In this document: piece after piece, positions 26,349 through 34,030 of the stretch
Layout: each line of letters starts with the position of its first letter
How positions within the stretch are numbered: position 1 is the first letter of the stretch
From: Aequorivita sp.
GTDB lineage: Bacteria > Bacteroidota > Bacteroidia > Flavobacteriales > Flavobacteriaceae
NCBI GenBank assembly: GCA_024637015.1
Contig: JAGXGE010000021.1
Span: 1-40,141 of the forward strand
DNA: 40,141 nucleotides
Direction: 5' to 3'
The notes under the pieces: generated by a model
Database searches by the model: none
What the model was told of the DNA's origin: nothing
The model's input: only the letters and a program-made list of their open reading frames with translations
Made by a program: the position numbers and the translations under genes

Positions 26349-27275
26349 ATGAAAGTAACAGTTGTAGGAGCAGGTGCTGTGGGCGCGAGTTGCGCAGAGT
26401 ACATTGCCATCAAGAATTTTGCAAGCGAAGTAGTTTTGTTAGACATCAAAGAAGGTTACGCCGAAGGAAAGGCAATGGATTTGATGCAGACGGCTTCTTT
26501 GAATGGTTTTGACACCAAAATTACTGGAGTAACAAACGATTATTCCAAAACTGCCGGTAGTGATATTTGCGTAATCACAAGTGGAATTCCACGTAAACCT
26601 GGAATGACACGTGAGGAGCTGATAGGAATTAATGCTGGAATTGTGAAGGATGTATCTTCAAACCTTGTAAAAAATTCCCCTAAAACTATTATAATCGTAG
26701 TAAGCAATCCAATGGATACTATGGCCTATTTGGTTCATAGAACATCAGGTTTGGATAAAAATAAAATCATCGGAATGGGTGGTGCTTTGGACAGCGCACG
26801 TTTTAAATACCGTTTGGCAGAAGCGTTGGGCGCTCCAATCAGCGATGTGGACGGAATGGTAATCGGTGGTCACAGCGATACCGGAATGGTGCCATTAACT
26901 CGTTTAGCAACAAGAAATAGTATTCCCGTAACAAAATTCATTTCTGAAGATAGATTAAATCAAGTAATGGAAGACACCAAAGTTGGTGGAGCAACACTTA
27001 CAAAATTGTTGGGAACTTCAGCTTGGTACGCTCCAGGAGCGGCGGTTTCGTCTTTGGTTCAAGCCATCGCCTGCGATCAAAAGAAAATGTTTCCTTGTTC
27101 TGTAATGCTTGACGGTGAATACGGATTGAAGGATATCTGCATCGGTGCTCCAGTTATTTTGGGTCGAAATGGTATCGAAAAAATCGTTGAACTTGAATTG
27201 AACGATGCCGAAAAAGCTCATATGAAAGAAAGTGCTGAAGGTGTTCGTAAAACAAATGATTTGCTTGAGTTATAG
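26349..27275 (+). CDS. mdh: Malate dehydrogenase
   Basis: A 308-aa NAD-dependent enzyme of the LDH-like MDH class. It has the Rossmann GAGAVG (7-12) and LLDIKEG for NAD+. The substrate loop is SGIPRKPGMTRE, whose two Arg bind the dicarboxylate. Other motifs are VSNPMDTM, the Asp in GALDSARFK, and the catalytic His in GGHSDTGM (H175). It interconverts malate and oxaloacetate in the TCA cycle. The GGHSDTGM variant of GGHGDTMVP is common in Bacteroidota. It is monocistronic with a very strong shared terminator downstream. Confidence 0.96.
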   Translation: MKVTVVGAGAVGASCAEYIAIKNFASEVVLLDIKEGYAEGKAMDLMQTASLNGFDTKITGVTNDYSKTAGSDICVITSGIPRKPGMTREELIGINAGIVKDVSSNLVKNSPKTIIIVVSNPMDTMAYLVHRTSGLDKNKIIGMGGALDSARFKYRLAEALGAPISDVDGMVIGGHSDTGMVPLTRLATRNSIPVTKFISEDRLNQVMEDTKVGGATLTKLLGTSAWYAPGAAVSSLVQAIACDQKKMFPCSVMLDGEYGLKDICIGAPVILGRNGIEKIVELELNDAEKAHMKESAEGVRKTNDLLEL

Positions 27276-27296
27276 TTTGAAGCGAATTATTTATAG

Positions 27297-27332
27297 AATT
27301 GAAAAAGCCGGCGATTGCCGGCTTTTTCAATT
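27297..27332. terminator. Bidirectional terminator between mdh and nrdJ
   Basis: AATTGAAAAAGCCGGC (27297-27312) and GCCGGCTTTTTCAATT (27317-27332) form a perfect 16-bp stem with loop GATT. A-run and T-run flank the GC core on both strands, so it can stop both convergent transcripts. Confidence 0.9.
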
Positions 27333-27350
27333 CAAGTTGATTATTGTCAG

Positions 27351-27366
27351 TTCGAGCGCAGTCGAA
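27351..27366. repeat. Dispersed TCGA-type hairpin repeat, copy 2
   Basis: TTCGA GCGCAG TCGAA is a perfect 5-bp-arm hairpin just past the nrdJ stop codon (27369). It has the same core as the unit at 16944-16965. Confidence 0.65.
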
Positions 27367-27368
27367 AA

Positions 27369-29921
27369 TTATCCGCATTTTGAAGAACCACAATCCTTAC
27401 AAGTCAAACATCCTTCCTGATAAATAAGTGAAGTACTATTACAGTTTTCACATTTCTGTTTGCGAGCTTCAGTACCGTCGGCTACATAGCGTTTCAAAGC
27501 ACGGGCAACCCCATTTTTCCAAGTATTAATACTTTCGCTATCAAGTTGTAGACTGTTGATTAATTCCACCGCTTTTTCAATTGGCATTCCGTGGCGCAAC
27601 GTGCTGGAAATCAACTTTGCATAATTCCAAAACTCTGGATTGAATTTATGCGAAAGCCCTTCAATAGTGGTTTTGTAGCCTCTTTTGTTTTTATACTGAA
27701 AATCGTAACGCGATGTTCCGTCCTCGTTTCGGTTTTTGATGATAACGCCTTCATTTACCCAACGCGGAATCAAAATTCCATCTTCATCATCTGCAAAACC
27801 GGTAAAGATTTCATAGGGTTTTTCATCAATCAAACCAATGAAGGCAATCCATTTGTCTTTGCTGTTTTGAAAACGAACGACGTCTGCGTCTAAAACTTCC
27901 GGACGTTTGGTTGGGAAGGCGGTCAATGTTTCATTGTCTTCATCTTTCTTTTCTTCATTTGAAATCAAAACCCCGGAGCGTGAGCCATCTCGGTAAACGG
28001 TAACGCCTTTACAGCCCGCTTGCCAAGCTTCCAGGTACAATTTGCCCACTAATTCCTCTGTAGCATCGTTCGGTAAATTAATGGTCACAGAAATAGAATG
28101 ATCCACCCATTTCTGCACCGCGCCTTGCATGCGCACTTTGCTCAACCAATCAACATCGTTGGAAGTGGCTTTGTAATACGGCGATTTCTTTACAATTTTA
28201 TTCAGCTCTTCCTGGCTGTAATTTTTGTTAGTATCAATCCCGTTGACTTCCATCCATTGCTTGAAGCGGTGGTGGAAAACGACATATTCTTCCCAACTGT
28301 CGCCCAGTTCGTCCACAAAATCAATACGTGCGTTTTTATCGTTTGGGTTCACTTTTCTTCTTCGTTTGTAAACTGGAAGAAAAACTGGTTCAATACCAGA
28401 GCTTGTCTGCGTCATCAAACTTGTTGTTCCGGTTGGAGCGATTGTAAGTAAGGCAATGTTTCTTCTGCCGTATTCTAACATATCGTAATACAATTTTTCA
28501 TCGGCTTCTTTTAGGCGAAGAATAAACGGATTGTCCTTTTCTCTTTCAGAATCAAAAATTTTGAAAGCACCTCTTTCTTTTGCTGCATAAACCGAAGCGC
28601 GATATGTTTCCAAAGCAATCATTTTGTGAATTTCAACAGAAAAATCAGTGCCTTCCTTACTGCCGTATTTTATTCCCAAGGCTGCAAGCATATCGCCTTC
28701 CGCGGTGATTCCTATTCCTGTTCTTCGGCCTTCCTGGGCTTTTCTTTGAATATTTAGCCAAAGGTTTTTTTCAACAGCTTTTATTTCGTCTCCTTGCGGA
28801 TCTGCATCAATCTTAGCGATTATTGCATCTACTTTTTCAAGCTCTAAATCGATGATATCGTCCATAATTTTTTGGGCGATGCCGATGTGTTTTTTAAAGA
28901 GTTCAAAATTGAATTCAGCCTTTTCCGTAAATGGATTTTCAACATAGGAAAACAAATTGATAGCCAACAATCGGCAGGAATCGTAAGGGCAAAGCGGAAT
29001 TTCGCCGCATGGATTGGTAGAAACTGTTTTGTATCCCAAATCTGCGTAACAATCTGGCACACTCTCTTTAATAATAGTATCCCAAAAAAGAATGCCGGGC
29101 TCGGCAGATTTCCAAGCGTTGTGTACTATTTTTTTCCAAAGTTTTCCAGCTTCAATTTCTTTCGTATTCTTTGGGTTTTCACTGAAGATTGGATATTTCT
29201 GAGTGTATTTATTACCATCTTTTACGGCTTGCATAAAAGCATCGTCCATCCTTACGGAAACGTTGGCGCCGGTTACTTTTCCCTGCTCCATTTTCGCATC
29301 GATAAAATCTTCGGAATCAGGGTGATTTATAGAAACTGAAAGCATTAAAGCCCCACGGCGCCCGTCTTGAGCCACTTCGCGGGTTGAATTGGAGTAACGC
29401 TCCATGAATGGAACAATTCCAGTTGAAGTCAAAGCCGAATTTTTCACAGGCGAACCTTTTGGACGAATGTGCGATAGGTCGTGGCCCACACCACCACGGC
29501 GTTTCATCAACTGAACCTGCTCTTGGTCTATTTTCATAATCCCACCGTAGGAATCTGAGTCACCGTCATTTCCAATTACAAAACAGTTGGAAAGCGAAGC
29601 AATCTGATATGGATTGCCGATACCTGCCATTGGACTGCCTTGTGGGACGATGTATTTGAAACCTTTTATTGCTTCAAAAACTTCCTCCTCTGTTAACGGA
29701 TTTTCATAACGCTGCTCAATTCTCGCAATTTCTTTTGCGATGCGGCGGTGCATGTCGTCTGGAGTTCTTTCATAAATATTGCCTTCGGAATCTTTTAAAG
29801 CATACTTATTCACCCAAACACGGGCGGCAAGATCGTCGCCTTTAAAGTATTCAACCGAGGAGTTGAAAGCTTCTTCCTGTGTGTAATTTTTTGGGGTAGG
29901 GATGACGGTTTTTACTTGCAT
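27369..29921 (-). CDS. nrdJ: Adenosylcobalamin-dependent (class II) ribonucleotide reductase
   Basis: An 850-aa catalytic subunit. Key features are SLSNCFVIG (C113, redox Cys), NPCGEIPLCPY with the N303/C305/E307 active-site trio, IAPTGTTSLM for phosphate binding, and a C-terminal Cys-rich ribbon with C824, C827, C838, C841, C844 and C849. The terminal thiols shuttle electrons from thioredoxin. The class II form makes its thiyl radical with vitamin B12 and needs no oxygen or small subunit; no nrdB-like gene is adjacent, consistent with this. I see no cobalamin riboswitch in the 207 nt upstream. It is convergent with mdh. Confidence 0.92.
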   Translation of the reverse strand: MQVKTVIPTPKNYTQEEAFNSSVEYFKGDDLAARVWVNKYALKDSEGNIYERTPDDMHRRIAKEIARIEQRYENPLTEEEVFEAIKGFKYIVPQGSPMAGIGNPYQIASLSNCFVIGNDGDSDSYGGIMKIDQEQVQLMKRRGGVGHDLSHIRPKGSPVKNSALTSTGIVPFMERYSNSTREVAQDGRRGALMLSVSINHPDSEDFIDAKMEQGKVTGANVSVRMDDAFMQAVKDGNKYTQKYPIFSENPKNTKEIEAGKLWKKIVHNAWKSAEPGILFWDTIIKESVPDCYADLGYKTVSTNPCGEIPLCPYDSCRLLAINLFSYVENPFTEKAEFNFELFKKHIGIAQKIMDDIIDLELEKVDAIIAKIDADPQGDEIKAVEKNLWLNIQRKAQEGRRTGIGITAEGDMLAALGIKYGSKEGTDFSVEIHKMIALETYRASVYAAKERGAFKIFDSEREKDNPFILRLKEADEKLYYDMLEYGRRNIALLTIAPTGTTSLMTQTSSGIEPVFLPVYKRRRKVNPNDKNARIDFVDELGDSWEEYVVFHHRFKQWMEVNGIDTNKNYSQEELNKIVKKSPYYKATSNDVDWLSKVRMQGAVQKWVDHSISVTINLPNDATEELVGKLYLEAWQAGCKGVTVYRDGSRSGVLISNEEKKDEDNETLTAFPTKRPEVLDADVVRFQNSKDKWIAFIGLIDEKPYEIFTGFADDEDGILIPRWVNEGVIIKNRNEDGTSRYDFQYKNKRGYKTTIEGLSHKFNPEFWNYAKLISSTLRHGMPIEKAVELINSLQLDSESINTWKNGVARALKRYVADGTEARKQKCENCNSTSLIYQEGCLTCKDCGSSKCG

Positions 29922-30128: not shown

Positions 30129-30806
30129 TTGATAAATGCATATTATTCAAAGACTTTAGATATACAGTCTTTATTTTTTTATATTTGGCGAGTGAACAGG
30201 AGATGGTACTTTATCGGAATAATAATAACCCTTGCTTTTTTTGGAATAAGCTTGGAGCAATCTACAGTGCCCAATCAGGAAATTGTTGTTCAGTTCAATG
30301 CTGATTCCATAACTGCTGATGAGGCGGAGCAAGTTATTTTGAATATCACAAGCCAATTAAAAGCTGTTGGCGTTGAAGAGTTTCAAGTTTCAGAAATACG
30401 TGGCGGAAAGCTAAAAGTAACTTATTTCAGCAACGTTGATGTAACTATAATAAAAGGCTTGTTTGATAAACAGGACAAGCTTGAGTTTGGCTATCGGGAT
30501 TTTGATGACCAAGGAGATTCTTCTAAAATTCCTTTTGGTAATGAATCCAACACCTATAAATTAGCTGTTAGCAAAATCCAAAAGGATTCGGGCTCTAACC
30601 TAGGACTTCATGGTTTGCCTATAGAATTAAAGTCTGTAAAAGACCAATATTTGAACCCAATTGTTTTTTTGGGTACTTCTGAAACTAATTTCAATTTCAA
30701 ACACAATATTAAAAGTGTAGTTTGTAAAAACTATCGCAATGTTGCAATTTTAATAGATAATACTTCATATAAAATTCCAGAGGTAAGGGCAGGGCCTTTG
30801 TCTTAA
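30129..30806 (+). CDS. Unrecognised membrane-anchored protein resembling a SecD periplasmic domain
   Basis: The frame opens with a TTG at 30129 (225 aa). A GTG at 30192 is an alternative (204 aa), because TATATTTG, a promoter-like box, lies just 4 nt before it. One membrane segment (about 25-42) is followed by a periplasmic domain. Two parts resemble the SecDF encoded next door. Residues 66-122 (AEQVILNITSQLKAVGV ... KGLF..Q.KLEFGY) align with SecDF 189-243 (AFEVLRKRIDKFGV ... KKLLQSTAQLEFWY). VAILIDNTSYKIPEVRAGPL (205-224) aligns with SecDF 442-461 (IAIVLDNIVYSAPGVTSGPI). The protein stops where SecD would enter its next membrane helices. It may be an accessory subunit or the remnant of a duplication. 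No motif suggests enzymatic activity. Confidence 0.7.
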   Translation: MINAYYSKTLDIQSLFFYIWRVNRRWYFIGIIITLAFFGISLEQSTVPNQEIVVQFNADSITADEAEQVILNITSQLKAVGVEEFQVSEIRGGKLKVTYFSNVDVTIIKGLFDKQDKLEFGYRDFDDQGDSSKIPFGNESNTYKLAVSKIQKDSGSNLGLHGLPIELKSVKDQYLNPIVFLGTSETNFNFKHNIKSVVCKNYRNVAILIDNTSYKIPEVRAGPLS

Positions 30807-30923
30807 AAAACTTCACAATAACATTTAAAGGTGAAGTTGAATTAATCTTTTTCGCCTTTAAAATTGGCTTCTGTTTTTCAAATTCAGAAGCAACAAAAAA
30901 TTAATTTTATATACCCACGATAA

Positions 30924-30954
30924 TTGTCAGATCTAACAGCAAATCATATATTTG
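30924..30954 (+). promoter_or_regulatory. Promoter of secDF (TTG-N20-TATATTTG)
   Basis: TTG at 30924-30926 and TATATTTG at 30947-30954, 20 nt apart, fit the Bacteroidetes consensus. The start codon is 34 nt further on. This gives secDF its own promoter, independent of the upstream SecD-like gene. Confidence 0.65.
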
Positions 30955-30988
30955 CCCGTTTTTAAAAATCTGACCAAAAAATATACAC

Positions 30989-33900
30989 ATGCAAAATAAA
31001 GGACTAATTACCATATTTGCCATCCTTTTTGGATTGGTGAGTATTTACCAGCTCTCTTTTACCTTTGTTGCAAACAAAGTAGAAGACAGTGCCAAAGAAT
31101 TTGCCAATAGCAAATTCTCTGAAGAGCAACCACACGAAAGAGATAATGCAGAGGCCCGATACTTGGACTCTGTTGCTAACAATACTGTATTTTTAGGAAT
31201 AGACTACAAAACAGCAAAAGAGAAAGAGCTGAATAAAGGTCTTGATCTTAAAGGTGGTATCAACGTGATTCTTGAGGTTTCTGTTAAAGACATCTTGAAA
31301 GGTCTTGCAAACAATACCAAGGATCCTGCATTCAACCAAGCGTTGGAAAACGCCGCTGTTCTTCAGAAGGATAGCCAGGACACATACTTAGAGTCTTTCT
31401 TCAAGGCTTTTGAAGCACTTCCTGGCGAAAACAATCTTGCATCACCAGATATTTTCTTCAACAAAAATTTAGAAGATGTTATTAACATTGGGATGACCAA
31501 TGCGCAAGTAAAACCAGTTATTGAAAAGAAAATTGATGAGTCAATTACTTCTGCTTTTGAGGTATTGAGAAAGCGTATTGATAAATTTGGGGTAACCCAG
31601 CCAAACATCCAGCGCTTGGGGAAATCTGCAAGAATTCTTGTGGAACTTCCTGGGGCGAAAGATGTGAACAGGGTGAAGAAATTGCTTCAAAGTACTGCCC
31701 AACTTGAGTTTTGGTATGTTTATAAATTTGAAGATATGGCAGGCTTCCTTCAAGCTGCTGATACCAAAGCAGGCGAAATAGCTATGGCGAAAAATGCTAC
31801 TGAAACAGCAAAGTCTTCAGATACGACAAAAACTGTTGGTGATTCTACCAAAACGGAAGAAGATGATGTTAGCAAACTATTGGGTGGCCAAGATGTAAAA
31901 GATTCTCTTGCCAATGACAACAAAACAAACCCAATACTTTCAAAAATGGTTTCATTAGGTAGCCAAGGAGGTCCGGTGATTGCTACTTTCAGATTAAAAG
32001 ATACTTCAGATATTAACAGTTATTTGCGTAATCCACAGATAAAATCATTGTTGCCGAACGAATTGCGTTTCGCAAAATTTATGTGGGGATTGCCAGAAAG
32101 CAGTCCGCAGCTTAATGGCGAAGAAATTACATCATTGTATGCTATAAAAAGCGAAAAGGACGGTCTTCCTCCATTGGGCGGAAGCGTAGTTGTAGATGCA
32201 AGACAAGAGTTTGACAATTTGAGCCGTGTAGTTGTTTCTATGCAAATGAATGGCCAGGGAGCTAAAGTTTGGGAACAAATGACAGGCAATGCATACCAAG
32301 ACCAAAGCCAGATTGCTATTGTGCTTGATAATATTGTTTATTCTGCACCTGGCGTAACTTCAGGTCCAATTGCCGGAGGACGTAGCCAGATTTCAGGAAA
32401 CTTTACCGTGCCACAAGGGCAGGATTTGGCCAATGTATTGCGCGCCGGTAAATTGCCTGCCTCTGCTGAGATTATTCAAGGAGAGGTTGTGGGACCAACA
32501 CTGGGTCACGAAGCAATAAGCAGTGGTGTAATGTCTTTCTTAATTGCACTTGTAATCGTTCTTTTATGGATGATTGGCTACTATGGAAAAGCTGGTATTT
32601 TTGCTGATATCGCTTTGTTGGTAAACATTCTTTTCATCTTTGGAATATTAGCGGGTCTTGGCGCGGTACTTACCTTGCCAGGTATTGCAGGTATTGTATT
32701 GACCATCGGTATGTCTGTGGATGCGAACGTACTTATCTTTGAAAGGATCAAGGAAGAACTTGCAAAAGGAAAAGCGCAAAAAGATGCCATTAAGGATGGT
32801 TTCAACAATGCGTTGTCTTCCATTCTTGATGCAAACATTACCACAGGTTTAACTGGTTTGATTCTTTTGGTATTCGGAACGGGACCAATTCAAGGTTTTG
32901 CAACTACGTTATTAATAGGTATTGCCACTTCATTGTTTACTGCAATTTTCATTACAAGATTGTTTATTGACAGTTACACGAAAAACGGAAAATCATTGCC
33001 TTGTTCAACTTCTTTTACAAAGGATCTGTTCAAGAATGTAAGTATTGAATTCTTGAAAAAACGTAAGGTTGCTTATGTGATTTCTGGAGTTATGATATTG
33101 ATAAGTCTTGGTTCGTTATTCACGCTTGGACTTAACCAAGGTGTTGACTTTGTGGGGGGACGTACGTACACGGTTCGTTTTGCAAAAGATGTAAATTCAA
33201 ACCAAATTCAAAGCGATTTGATAAAAACATTTGGTAGTGCCGAAGCAAAAACATACGGCGGTGACAACCAGTTGAAAATCACAACCAAATACAAGGTTGA
33301 TGAAACTGGAACCGATGTAGATGAAGAAATAGAACACATGCTTTTTGAAACCGTTAAAAAGGATATGCCTGCTGATATGACCTATGAAAAATTTGTGGGC
33401 GACCAAGACGGAAAAACCATTGGTAGAATGGAATACTACAAAGTGAGTCCTACCATTGCTGATGATATTAAGAGAGACTCTTTCTGGGCAGTATTTGGCT
33501 CTCTGGTTGTGGTTTTCCTTTACATATTATTGCGCTTTAGAAGATGGCAGTTTAGTTTGGGTGCGGTTGCGGCTGTATTCCACGACGTGCTTATTGTTCT
33601 TGGTGTTTTCTCTTTAACCTATAAGTTTATGCCATTCAGCATGGAGATTGACCAAGCATTTATTGCGGCAATTCTTACCGTAATTGGTTACTCGCTGAAC
33701 GATACGGTAATTGTGTTTGACCGTATTCGTGAATACTTTGGCGACCACCCAAGTTGGAAAATGAACCGAATTATTGACGTAGCCTTAAGTAGCACGTTGG
33801 GAAGAACCTTGAACACCTCCTTCACCACGCTTATCGTGTTGTTGTGTATGTTCTTCTTTGGTGCGGAATCCATACGCGGATTGCTGTTTGCTATTGTTGT

Positions 33901-34030
33901 TGGTATCGTAGTAGGTACATATTCATCGTTGTTTATCGCAACGCCAATTATGTATGATACCGTGAAACGTAAAAAAGTCGAGGATTTGATCGATAAAAAA
34001 GAAGAAGATGAGCTTGCTTTAGAAGCGTAG
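30989..34030 (+). CDS. secDF: Protein translocase subunit SecDF (SecD-SecF fusion)
   Basis: A 1013-aa fused RND-type protein with about twelve membrane segments. The SecD half has the first helix, GLDLKGG (84-90), the P1 periplasmic domain, GKLPASAEIIQGEVVGPTLG and the TM4-6 block with SVDANVLIFERIKEEL. The SecF half has GVDFVGGRTYTVRF, AAILTVIGYSLNDTVIVFDR and a C-terminal basic tail. A low-complexity Ser/Thr/Lys/Asp insert (about 265-315) interrupts P1, as is usual in Bacteroidota. It uses the proton gradient to pull secreted proteins out of SecYEG on the periplasmic side. It ends in a strong terminator. The preceding gene encodes a P1-like protein. Confidence 0.97.
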   Translation: MQNKGLITIFAILFGLVSIYQLSFTFVANKVEDSAKEFANSKFSEEQPHERDNAEARYLDSVANNTVFLGIDYKTAKEKELNKGLDLKGGINVILEVSVKDILKGLANNTKDPAFNQALENAAVLQKDSQDTYLESFFKAFEALPGENNLASPDIFFNKNLEDVINIGMTNAQVKPVIEKKIDESITSAFEVLRKRIDKFGVTQPNIQRLGKSARILVELPGAKDVNRVKKLLQSTAQLEFWYVYKFEDMAGFLQAADTKAGEIAMAKNATETAKSSDTTKTVGDSTKTEEDDVSKLLGGQDVKDSLANDNKTNPILSKMVSLGSQGGPVIATFRLKDTSDINSYLRNPQIKSLLPNELRFAKFMWGLPESSPQLNGEEITSLYAIKSEKDGLPPLGGSVVVDARQEFDNLSRVVVSMQMNGQGAKVWEQMTGNAYQDQSQIAIVLDNIVYSAPGVTSGPIAGGRSQISGNFTVPQGQDLANVLRAGKLPASAEIIQGEVVGPTLGHEAISSGVMSFLIALVIVLLWMIGYYGKAGIFADIALLVNILFIFGILAGLGAVLTLPGIAGIVLTIGMSVDANVLIFERIKEELAKGKAQKDAIKDGFNNALSSILDANITTGLTGLILLVFGTGPIQGFATTLLIGIATSLFTAIFITRLFIDSYTKNGKSLPCSTSFTKDLFKNVSIEFLKKRKVAYVISGVMILISLGSLFTLGLNQGVDFVGGRTYTVRFAKDVNSNQIQSDLIKTFGSAEAKTYGGDNQLKITTKYKVDETGTDVDEEIEHMLFETVKKDMPADMTYEKFVGDQDGKTIGRMEYYKVSPTIADDIKRDSFWAVFGSLVVVFLYILLRFRRWQFSLGAVAAVFHDVLIVLGVFSLTYKFMPFSMEIDQAFIAAILTVIGYSLNDTVIVFDRIREYFGDHPSWKMNRIIDVALSSTLGRTLNTSFTTLIVLLCMFFFGAESIRGLLFAIVVGIVVGTYSSLFIATPIMYDTVKRKKVEDLIDKKEEDELALEA

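Follow-up and report, generated by a model that had tools for sequence, protein, structure and literature searches.

What is the small open frame that lies directly upstream of secDF in this flavobacterial genome, and what does it do for its neighbour? The stretch of DNA analyzed here (the window; 40,141 nucleotides) comes from an Aequorivita-like flavobacterium, and the frame in question (nt. 30129–30806, forward strand; 225 codons from a TTG start) has a single match in the genome. It is followed by secDF (nt. 30989–34030, forward strand), the presumed regulated gene, identified via the NCBIfam SecDF equivalog NF009585 (1409.6 bits). The preliminary description saw a 225-codon frame of no recognized family with one membrane segment; we confirmed the frame and the single hydrophobic segment, and searches returned no useful family (Pfam gave only SurA_N_3, E 0.065; NCBIfam gave none), with the best named relative of the protein found in Aequorivita sp. 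CIP111184 (78% protein identity). Judged by its sequence and relatives, the gene probably encodes an arrest peptide that monitors secretion, of a kind already published, in vitro stalling having been published for the group and not for the window gene.

Coding sequence, distribution and the RAGP core

The likely coding sequence is shorter than the open frame, running from a GTG start (nt. 30192–30194) to a TAA stop (nt. 30804–30806) on the forward strand (nt. 30192–30806, 204 a.a). A start codon, ATG in most relatives, is held at the equivalent place, 4 nt past a −7 promoter box, and the frame 5′ of it is often closed: in 95 of 144 distinct proteins (a set that includes two truncated proteins and the window's own), the 63 nt preceding the start contain an in-frame stop. 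Given these stops, we rejected the first 21 codons as coding sequence, and they are probably untranslated; the seemingly "conserved" FFYIW is the DNA of the −7 box, TATATTTG, read in frame. The open frame reported earlier thus stands, but not the full 225 codons as protein. The N-terminal membrane segment or signal anchor (approximately residues 2–20, nt. 30195–30251, forward strand) is a hydrophobic stretch in the sequence and a helix in both AlphaFold models.

Using the single sequence as query, the gene was found in all 27 other genomes of the genus, two of eight other genomes of the family, and none of 23 genomes from other families in the order. With a profile query (E 0.001), matches were obtained in 153 of 397 family genomes, covering 98 of 237 genera (three of them at E 1e-4 or weaker), and 244 of the 397 were without a match. 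At 75 of 77 loci secDF lies downstream on the same strand, and the other two stop at the contig end. No such uORF of at least 60 codons was seen by eye before secDF in 30 genomes without a match (24 in the family), and in 16 of these 30 the adjacent ORF is an mdh-type gene. The dN/dS of the arrest-peptide gene ranged from 0.056 to 0.241 across 12 pairs, and the 5′ portion of secDF gave 0 to 0.076; the arrest-peptide gene evolves faster than secDF, yet is constrained by purifying selection. The long-term preservation argued for in the preliminary description, which had pointed to a flavobacterial survey and dN/dS as checks, is borne out by these values and by a gene that is widespread upstream of secDF (153 of 397 family genomes).

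We take the neighbouring genes to be those named lgt, RNR, DUF192, gyrB, and mdh. In the window, a ribonucleotide-reductase-like gene (nt. 26349–29921, minus strand, 850 a.a) lies between the mdh-type and arrest-peptide genes; it is similarly placed in those Aequorivita loci that are long enough and was not seen in other genera, where the mdh-type gene is usually nearer. Two loci with no arrest peptide (L203 and L205) carry a secreted-looking protein of ~220 a.a between the mdh-type gene and secDF, and a similar-looking protein occurs at L066:4293–4943.

The C-terminal motif RAGP, absent from the preliminary description, forms the presumed arrest core of the window protein (R199 A200 G201 P202; nt. 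30786–30797, forward strand). Every one of the 141 distinct full-length relatives (the number left after merging overlapping genome sets) carries it, 2–13 residues before the C-terminus, the distance to the end being 2 residues in 91; the median pairwise identity of RAGP-bearing relatives is 0.35, and RAGP was not a search pattern when the loci were collected. In a deep alignment of 143 rows (without L062, which was masked, and L063, at a contig end; the window protein occurs twice, once as L078), RAGP is the sole four-residue run at 100%. Conservation of 0.97–1.00 was also reached in the P1-like part described below at N29, Q30, L57, Y79, and S81, the values for N29, Q30, and the NQEIVVQF block being biased by the partial use of the NQEIVVQF pattern in gathering loci, and the middle of the protein is among its least conserved parts.

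RAGP is described as the end of the Escherichia coli SecM arrest motif (PMC10987492) and as rare in bacterial proteomes (PMC12992588), and it was among the query motifs with which Fujiwara et al. (2024) screened 30,175 genomes for such uORFs (PMC10987492). One of the groups described there, uDF_RQH_Flavobacteriales, is a RAPP-like secDF uORF whose representative stalls ribosomes in vitro, efficiently in a B. subtilis PURE system and less so in an E. coli one, and RQH members are reported to stall while the P site is occupied by the third residue of the motif (PMC10987492). By that published position, the predicted P-site Gly codon of the window gene is nt. 30792–30794 and the A-site Pro codon nt. 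30795–30797 (forward strand). The window protein has an N-terminal transmembrane segment, RAGP near its C-terminus, and a signal-to-motif spacer of ~180 residues, i.e., above 30. Since no other RAPP-like secDF uORF was seen in the Flavobacteriaceae loci read, we equate the window gene with uDF_RQH_Flavobacteriales, to which, judged by the published description, it very probably belongs. RAGP is not preceded by the SecM context FxxxxWIxxxxGI, and the window protein has no Trp in the upstream context.

Relationship to the SecD P1 domain

Upstream of its motif, the window protein comprises a SecD P1-base-like region (PNQEIVVQF ... KVTYFSNVDVTIIKGLF ... LEF, beta-alpha-beta-beta-alpha; nt. 30270–30506, forward strand), supported by the N half in hhalign and by the models, and a SecD P1-head-like C-terminal region (nt. 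30549–30803, forward strand), supported by the C half in hhalign and ending at the arrest motif. Two alignments of members were kept, A1 with 44 of 48 sequences (without L039, L042, L062, and L063) and A4 with 43 (also without L035). In profile comparison, the first alignment reached Prob 32.6 against SecDF plus lipoproteins, 84.2 against four stand-alone SecD P1 lipoproteins, and a weak 15.3 against SecDF alone at full length, with its P1-base and head segments each scoring above all 200 column shuffles. The strongest match of the deep profile was to the stand-alone P1 lipoproteins (Prob 97.9, E 3.6e-13, colinear over 210 columns), where the score was 92.6, whereas 100 column shuffles never exceeded 19.2 and the reversed profile gave 18.1; taken separately, the N half reached Prob 95.1 and the C half Prob 93.6. 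The final aligned residues are KIPEVRAGPL versus YSAPGVTSGPI.

The two halves of the deep alignment were also compared with 110 segments of 90 residues, 78 of them not SecDF and drawn from neighbouring families (some of these shallow: w38, w4, and w20 had four, six, and nine homologues). For each half, the top three were overlapping SecD P1 segments, in colinear order. The C half matched SecD 391–480 with a score of 36.5 (Prob 92.8, E 3.9e-7; best non-SecDF score 14.1), and the N half scored at best 21.2 against SecD P1, with a Prob of only 15 (best non-SecDF score 16.3).

Family databases and structure models gave less. Neither SecD_1st nor SecDF_P1_head matched the window protein above the Pfam cut-off, and both are missing among the 25 of 37 families listed for the 44 members, whose weak Pfam matches include SecD-TM1 in five (best E 0.013) and SurA_N_3 in ten (best E 0.0053). 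A PDB sequence search with the profile returned three weak matches (best E 0.084). Fair AlphaFold confidence was confined to the N-terminal helix and a beta-alpha-beta-beta-alpha stretch (residues ~31–90, block pLDDT 71–87); the C-terminal half was poorly modelled, with strands in the first model and a helix in the second, and the second model, led by a relative, was no better than the first (mean pLDDT 58.5 versus 57.3). Foldseek with the first model returned ferredoxin-like folds such as PII, with no match at E ≤0.001 and no SecDF among the best 50 of 1590, an outcome that speaks neither for nor against a SecD P1 fold.

The preliminary description had based its reading on two blocks shared with the SecD half of the adjacent SecDF, and it noted the lack of the LDLKGG motif; that motif and the TM2–6 bundle are indeed absent from the translation. 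The likeness itself proved to be above chance in profile comparison, both in the 110-segment test and against shuffled columns, the HMM–HMM match being strong with the P1 lipoproteins and weak with SecDF alone. From these profile comparisons, we hold the family to be homologous to, and apparently descended from, the SecD P1 domain.

The stand-alone P1 lipoproteins (~300–320 a.a) are encoded between the mdh-type and arrest-peptide genes (L052:3982–4917, L066:3226–4152, L067:3858–4802, and L076:4071–4961), and four examples tested match PF22599. Such a gene lies upstream on the same strand at 17 of 156 loci, a lower bound as many loci cover only 1.5 kb upstream, within ~230 nt at 14 loci and ~0.9 kb away at three; the alignment used above holds 12 sequences from 14 of the 17 loci (two fragments were dropped, and L076 and L142 are identical). 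These lipoproteins may represent a step by which the arrest peptide arose.

Promoters and leader hairpins

The −7 promoter box of the arrest-peptide gene (TATATTTG, nt. 30180–30187, forward strand) is of the Bacteroidota type and ends 4 nt before the GTG at nt. 30192. Of 141 distinct full-length relatives, 132 have such a box 4–6 nt ahead of the start (4 nt in 124, 5 nt in six, and 6 nt in two) and nine lack it, a count biased by a start-picking script that favoured starts with a box before them; yet in the control, none of 166 start codons belonging to six other genes at these loci had a box at 3–7 nt. In F. johnsoniae, where a promoter counts as probable if 4 or 5 nt separate the box from the transcription start, the box is placed at −12 to −5 (PMC6847099), and the mRNA of the arrest-peptide gene should therefore begin at the start codon. 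We predict a leaderless mRNA, with the transcription start on the first base of the start codon; such mRNAs are reported to be few in the family, at 5.5% in F. psychrophilum (PMC9723704). In four Gelidibacter relatives (L071–L073 and L075), there is no box at the start codon, and TATATATTTG occurs ~65–75 nt upstream; these copies may start at TTG and could represent a variant of the gene with a leadered mRNA.

Beside the promoter box lies a terminator-like hairpin with a T run (AAAGACT...AGTCTTT, nt. 30149–30179, forward strand), read from the sequence, and in 80 of 139 sequences, versus 7.2 expected, the 80 nt leading up to the start contain a terminator-like site. The hairpin is retained in the window although the co-directional upstream gene is 2.9 kb off.

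A putative promoter of secDF itself is formed by TTG (nt. 30924–30926) and TATATTTG (nt. 30947–30954; together nt. 30924–30954, forward strand), elements to which we assign, presumptively, a −33/−7 spacing. The box is conserved in part of the relatives: a TAnnTTTG box lies between the genes in 112 of 152 sequences, 32–39 nt before the secDF start in 73 of the 152. As secDF has a promoter box of its own in these 112 sequences, the arrest gene can control only part of secDF expression.

Two hairpins lie between the genes. The one just past the stop codon (arms nt. 30809–30816 and 30831–30838; nt. 30809–30838, forward strand), read from the sequence, is modest, with a mean z of −1.44 to −1.45 in 60-nt windows versus −0.3 to −1.2 in neighbouring ones (139 sequences). 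The one before secDF pairs GTCAGAT (nt. 30926–30932) with ATCTGAC (nt. 30968–30974) around an inner stem (nt. 30939–30955; nt. 30926–30974 overall, forward strand), a prediction supported by folding z and pair counts. Over positions −70 to −10, the mean z was −2.45, falling below −1.5 in 82% of 139 gene-bearing sequences, versus a mean of −0.11, and 8% below −1.5, in 24 family genomes without the gene (Mann–Whitney p 3e-12, relatedness ignored); genomes with the arrest gene commonly show the hairpin, and those lacking the gene rarely do. Its pairs were counted in 68 of the 139 sequences, hand-picked (alignment A3; the rows of A2 were likewise chosen by hand): 86.5% of cells pair, versus 82.0% when shuffled and 20.8–48.0% when slid, the structure being favoured over slid versions as it was drawn from one of the 68. 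None of 500 shuffles reached the covariation score or the doubly changed cells, 10 reached the further pair types, and 106 reached the number of doubly changed pairs.

Given that the 5′ arm of this hairpin is the −33 region of the secDF promoter, its position implies that only read-through mRNA would form it, and its effect on the secDF start may be to hinder or to shield it. That start (−20 to +15) has a predicted openness of 0.663, versus 0.527 in shuffled leaders, and of 0.666 with 17 nt at the stall masked; masking raised openness in 40 and lowered it in 42 of 139 sequences. A SecM-like switch by direct occlusion is thus unsupported, the start being predicted open with or without the stalled ribosome. 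Intrinsic attenuation as a general rule is likewise unsupported, with intergenic terminator-like sites in 17 of 139 sequences versus 8.1 expected and none in the window.

Proposed secretion monitoring and comparison with known systems

The reading that we prefer, and consider likely, is a SecM-type secretion monitor that would control secDF and would descend from a SecD P1 domain. A leaderless mRNA would start at the start codon of the gene, the nascent chain would be directed to the Sec translocon via its N-terminal membrane segment, and RAGP at the peptidyl transferase centre, with Gly201 in the P site and Pro202 in the A site, would stall the ribosome. Export of the P1-like spacer would presumably pull the chain and release the stall, and slow export would let the stall last and presumably raise secDF expression from read-through mRNA, on which the pre-secDF hairpin, beyond the stalled ribosome, may play a part. 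The predicted openness of the secDF start in both states counts against this explanation, as do the missing SecM context, the separate promoter box of secDF, and the scarcity of intergenic terminator-like sites. A fuller account, its odds lowered by the open secDF start, has about an even chance of being right: a tandem copy of SecD P1, a domain also found today as stand-alone lipoproteins nearby, was cut at the TSGP turn, acquired RAGP by two substitutions, and became a P1-mimicking SecDF sensor. In this account the sensor is translated from an mRNA without a leader, and secDF is expressed both as a short mRNA from the promoter in front of it and as an arrest-controlled read-through mRNA, which alone can form the hairpin.

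In a stronger form of our preferred reading, which we think rather unlikely, the P1 copy mimics SecD, the nascent or released chain binding SecDF or preproteins and so sensing SecDF engagement directly. The retention of N29, Q30, L57, Y79, and S81 (N29 and Q30 with the bias noted above), superfluous in a bare spacer, would fit such mimicry; however, these residues may instead act inside the exit tunnel or in targeting.

Improbable, in our view, is a finished protein acting in the periplasm with SecDF. The modelled P1-base core, the dN/dS of 0.056–0.241 over the coding sequence, the P1 homology, and the synteny with secDF would all suit such a subunit, but the strongest constraint falls on a ribosome-stalling tetrapeptide near the C-terminus, the middle is weakly conserved, the C-terminal half is poorly modelled, and no match was found in 244 of the 397 family genomes. 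The assisting periplasmic subunit of the translocon proposed in the preliminary description is therefore not the best reading, given RAGP in 141 of 141 relatives, the place of the gene as a secDF uORF, and the published stalling group; its "regulatory" role survives in another sense, via the nascent chain, but not as a periplasmic subunit, and its "preserved fragment of a duplicated secD" survives as origin but not as function. That the gene is a decaying, functionless remnant of a secD duplication, as a shortened relative of SecD P1 might be, has next to no likelihood against a dN/dS of 0.056–0.241, matches throughout the genus (27 of 27 other genomes) and more widely across the family (98 of 237 genera), and a retained promoter spacing and C-terminus.

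Three features, namely the SecD P1 descent, the leaderless mRNA, and the linked read-through hairpin, were not found in print, the literature covered including word searches of the main texts of PMC10987492 and PMC7897499, with supplements, preprints, and most subscription papers outside its scope. RAPP-type arrest peptides are described as lacking overall mutual similarity, with a shared origin left open (Fujiwara et al., 2024; PMC10987492). The window group offers an arrest-peptide origin that can be traced, to a domain of the translocase encoded next door, in a gene widespread in the family (98 of 237 genera sampled), and it suggests that the SecD TSGP turn can readily serve as a precursor of an RAGP core.

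Of the known systems, uDF_RQH_Flavobacteriales is the closest: like the window gene, it is a uORF directly upstream of secDF in Flavobacteriales, and its small product carries a localization signal at the N-terminus and, close to the C-terminus, a RAPP-like motif. The stem-loop regulation described in PMC10987492 concerns another group, in Enterobacterales. Upstream ORFs of secDF also occur elsewhere in Bacteroidota, where five of 40 class-level secDF upstream regions (chosen from 76 matching genomes) carry uORFs resembling the published uDF_NAP-stop group (L242, L244, and L254, also L229 and L234), with LAP, QAP, or NAP as their last residues; a shared SecD origin for these is unsupported, as none of the five resembles SecD P1 by eye. 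VemP of Vibrio and ApdA/ApdP, both encoded upstream of secDF2, are arrest peptides before secDF, as here; the arrest motif of VemP differs from RAGP, and that of ApdA/ApdP is RAPP.

The window protein shares with SecM of E. coli, encoded upstream of secA, the RAGP core near the C-terminus, an N-terminal export signal, and presumably the logic of a monitor. It differs in preceding secDF instead of secA, in its context (no FxxxxWIxxxxGI), in its predicted leaderless mRNA, and in having no Shine–Dalgarno sequence to free; in a phylum described as being without Shine–Dalgarno sequences (PMC6847099), the usual account of a stall that frees one cannot therefore apply unchanged. With SecD P1 and the P1 lipoproteins (PF22599, PF21760), it shares a colinear profile match. 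Where the P1 lipoproteins carry, by eye, what we take to be a lipobox, the window protein has a membrane anchor, and unlike SecD P1 it has a shortened head, its chain ending at the place of SecD's TSGP with RAGP there.
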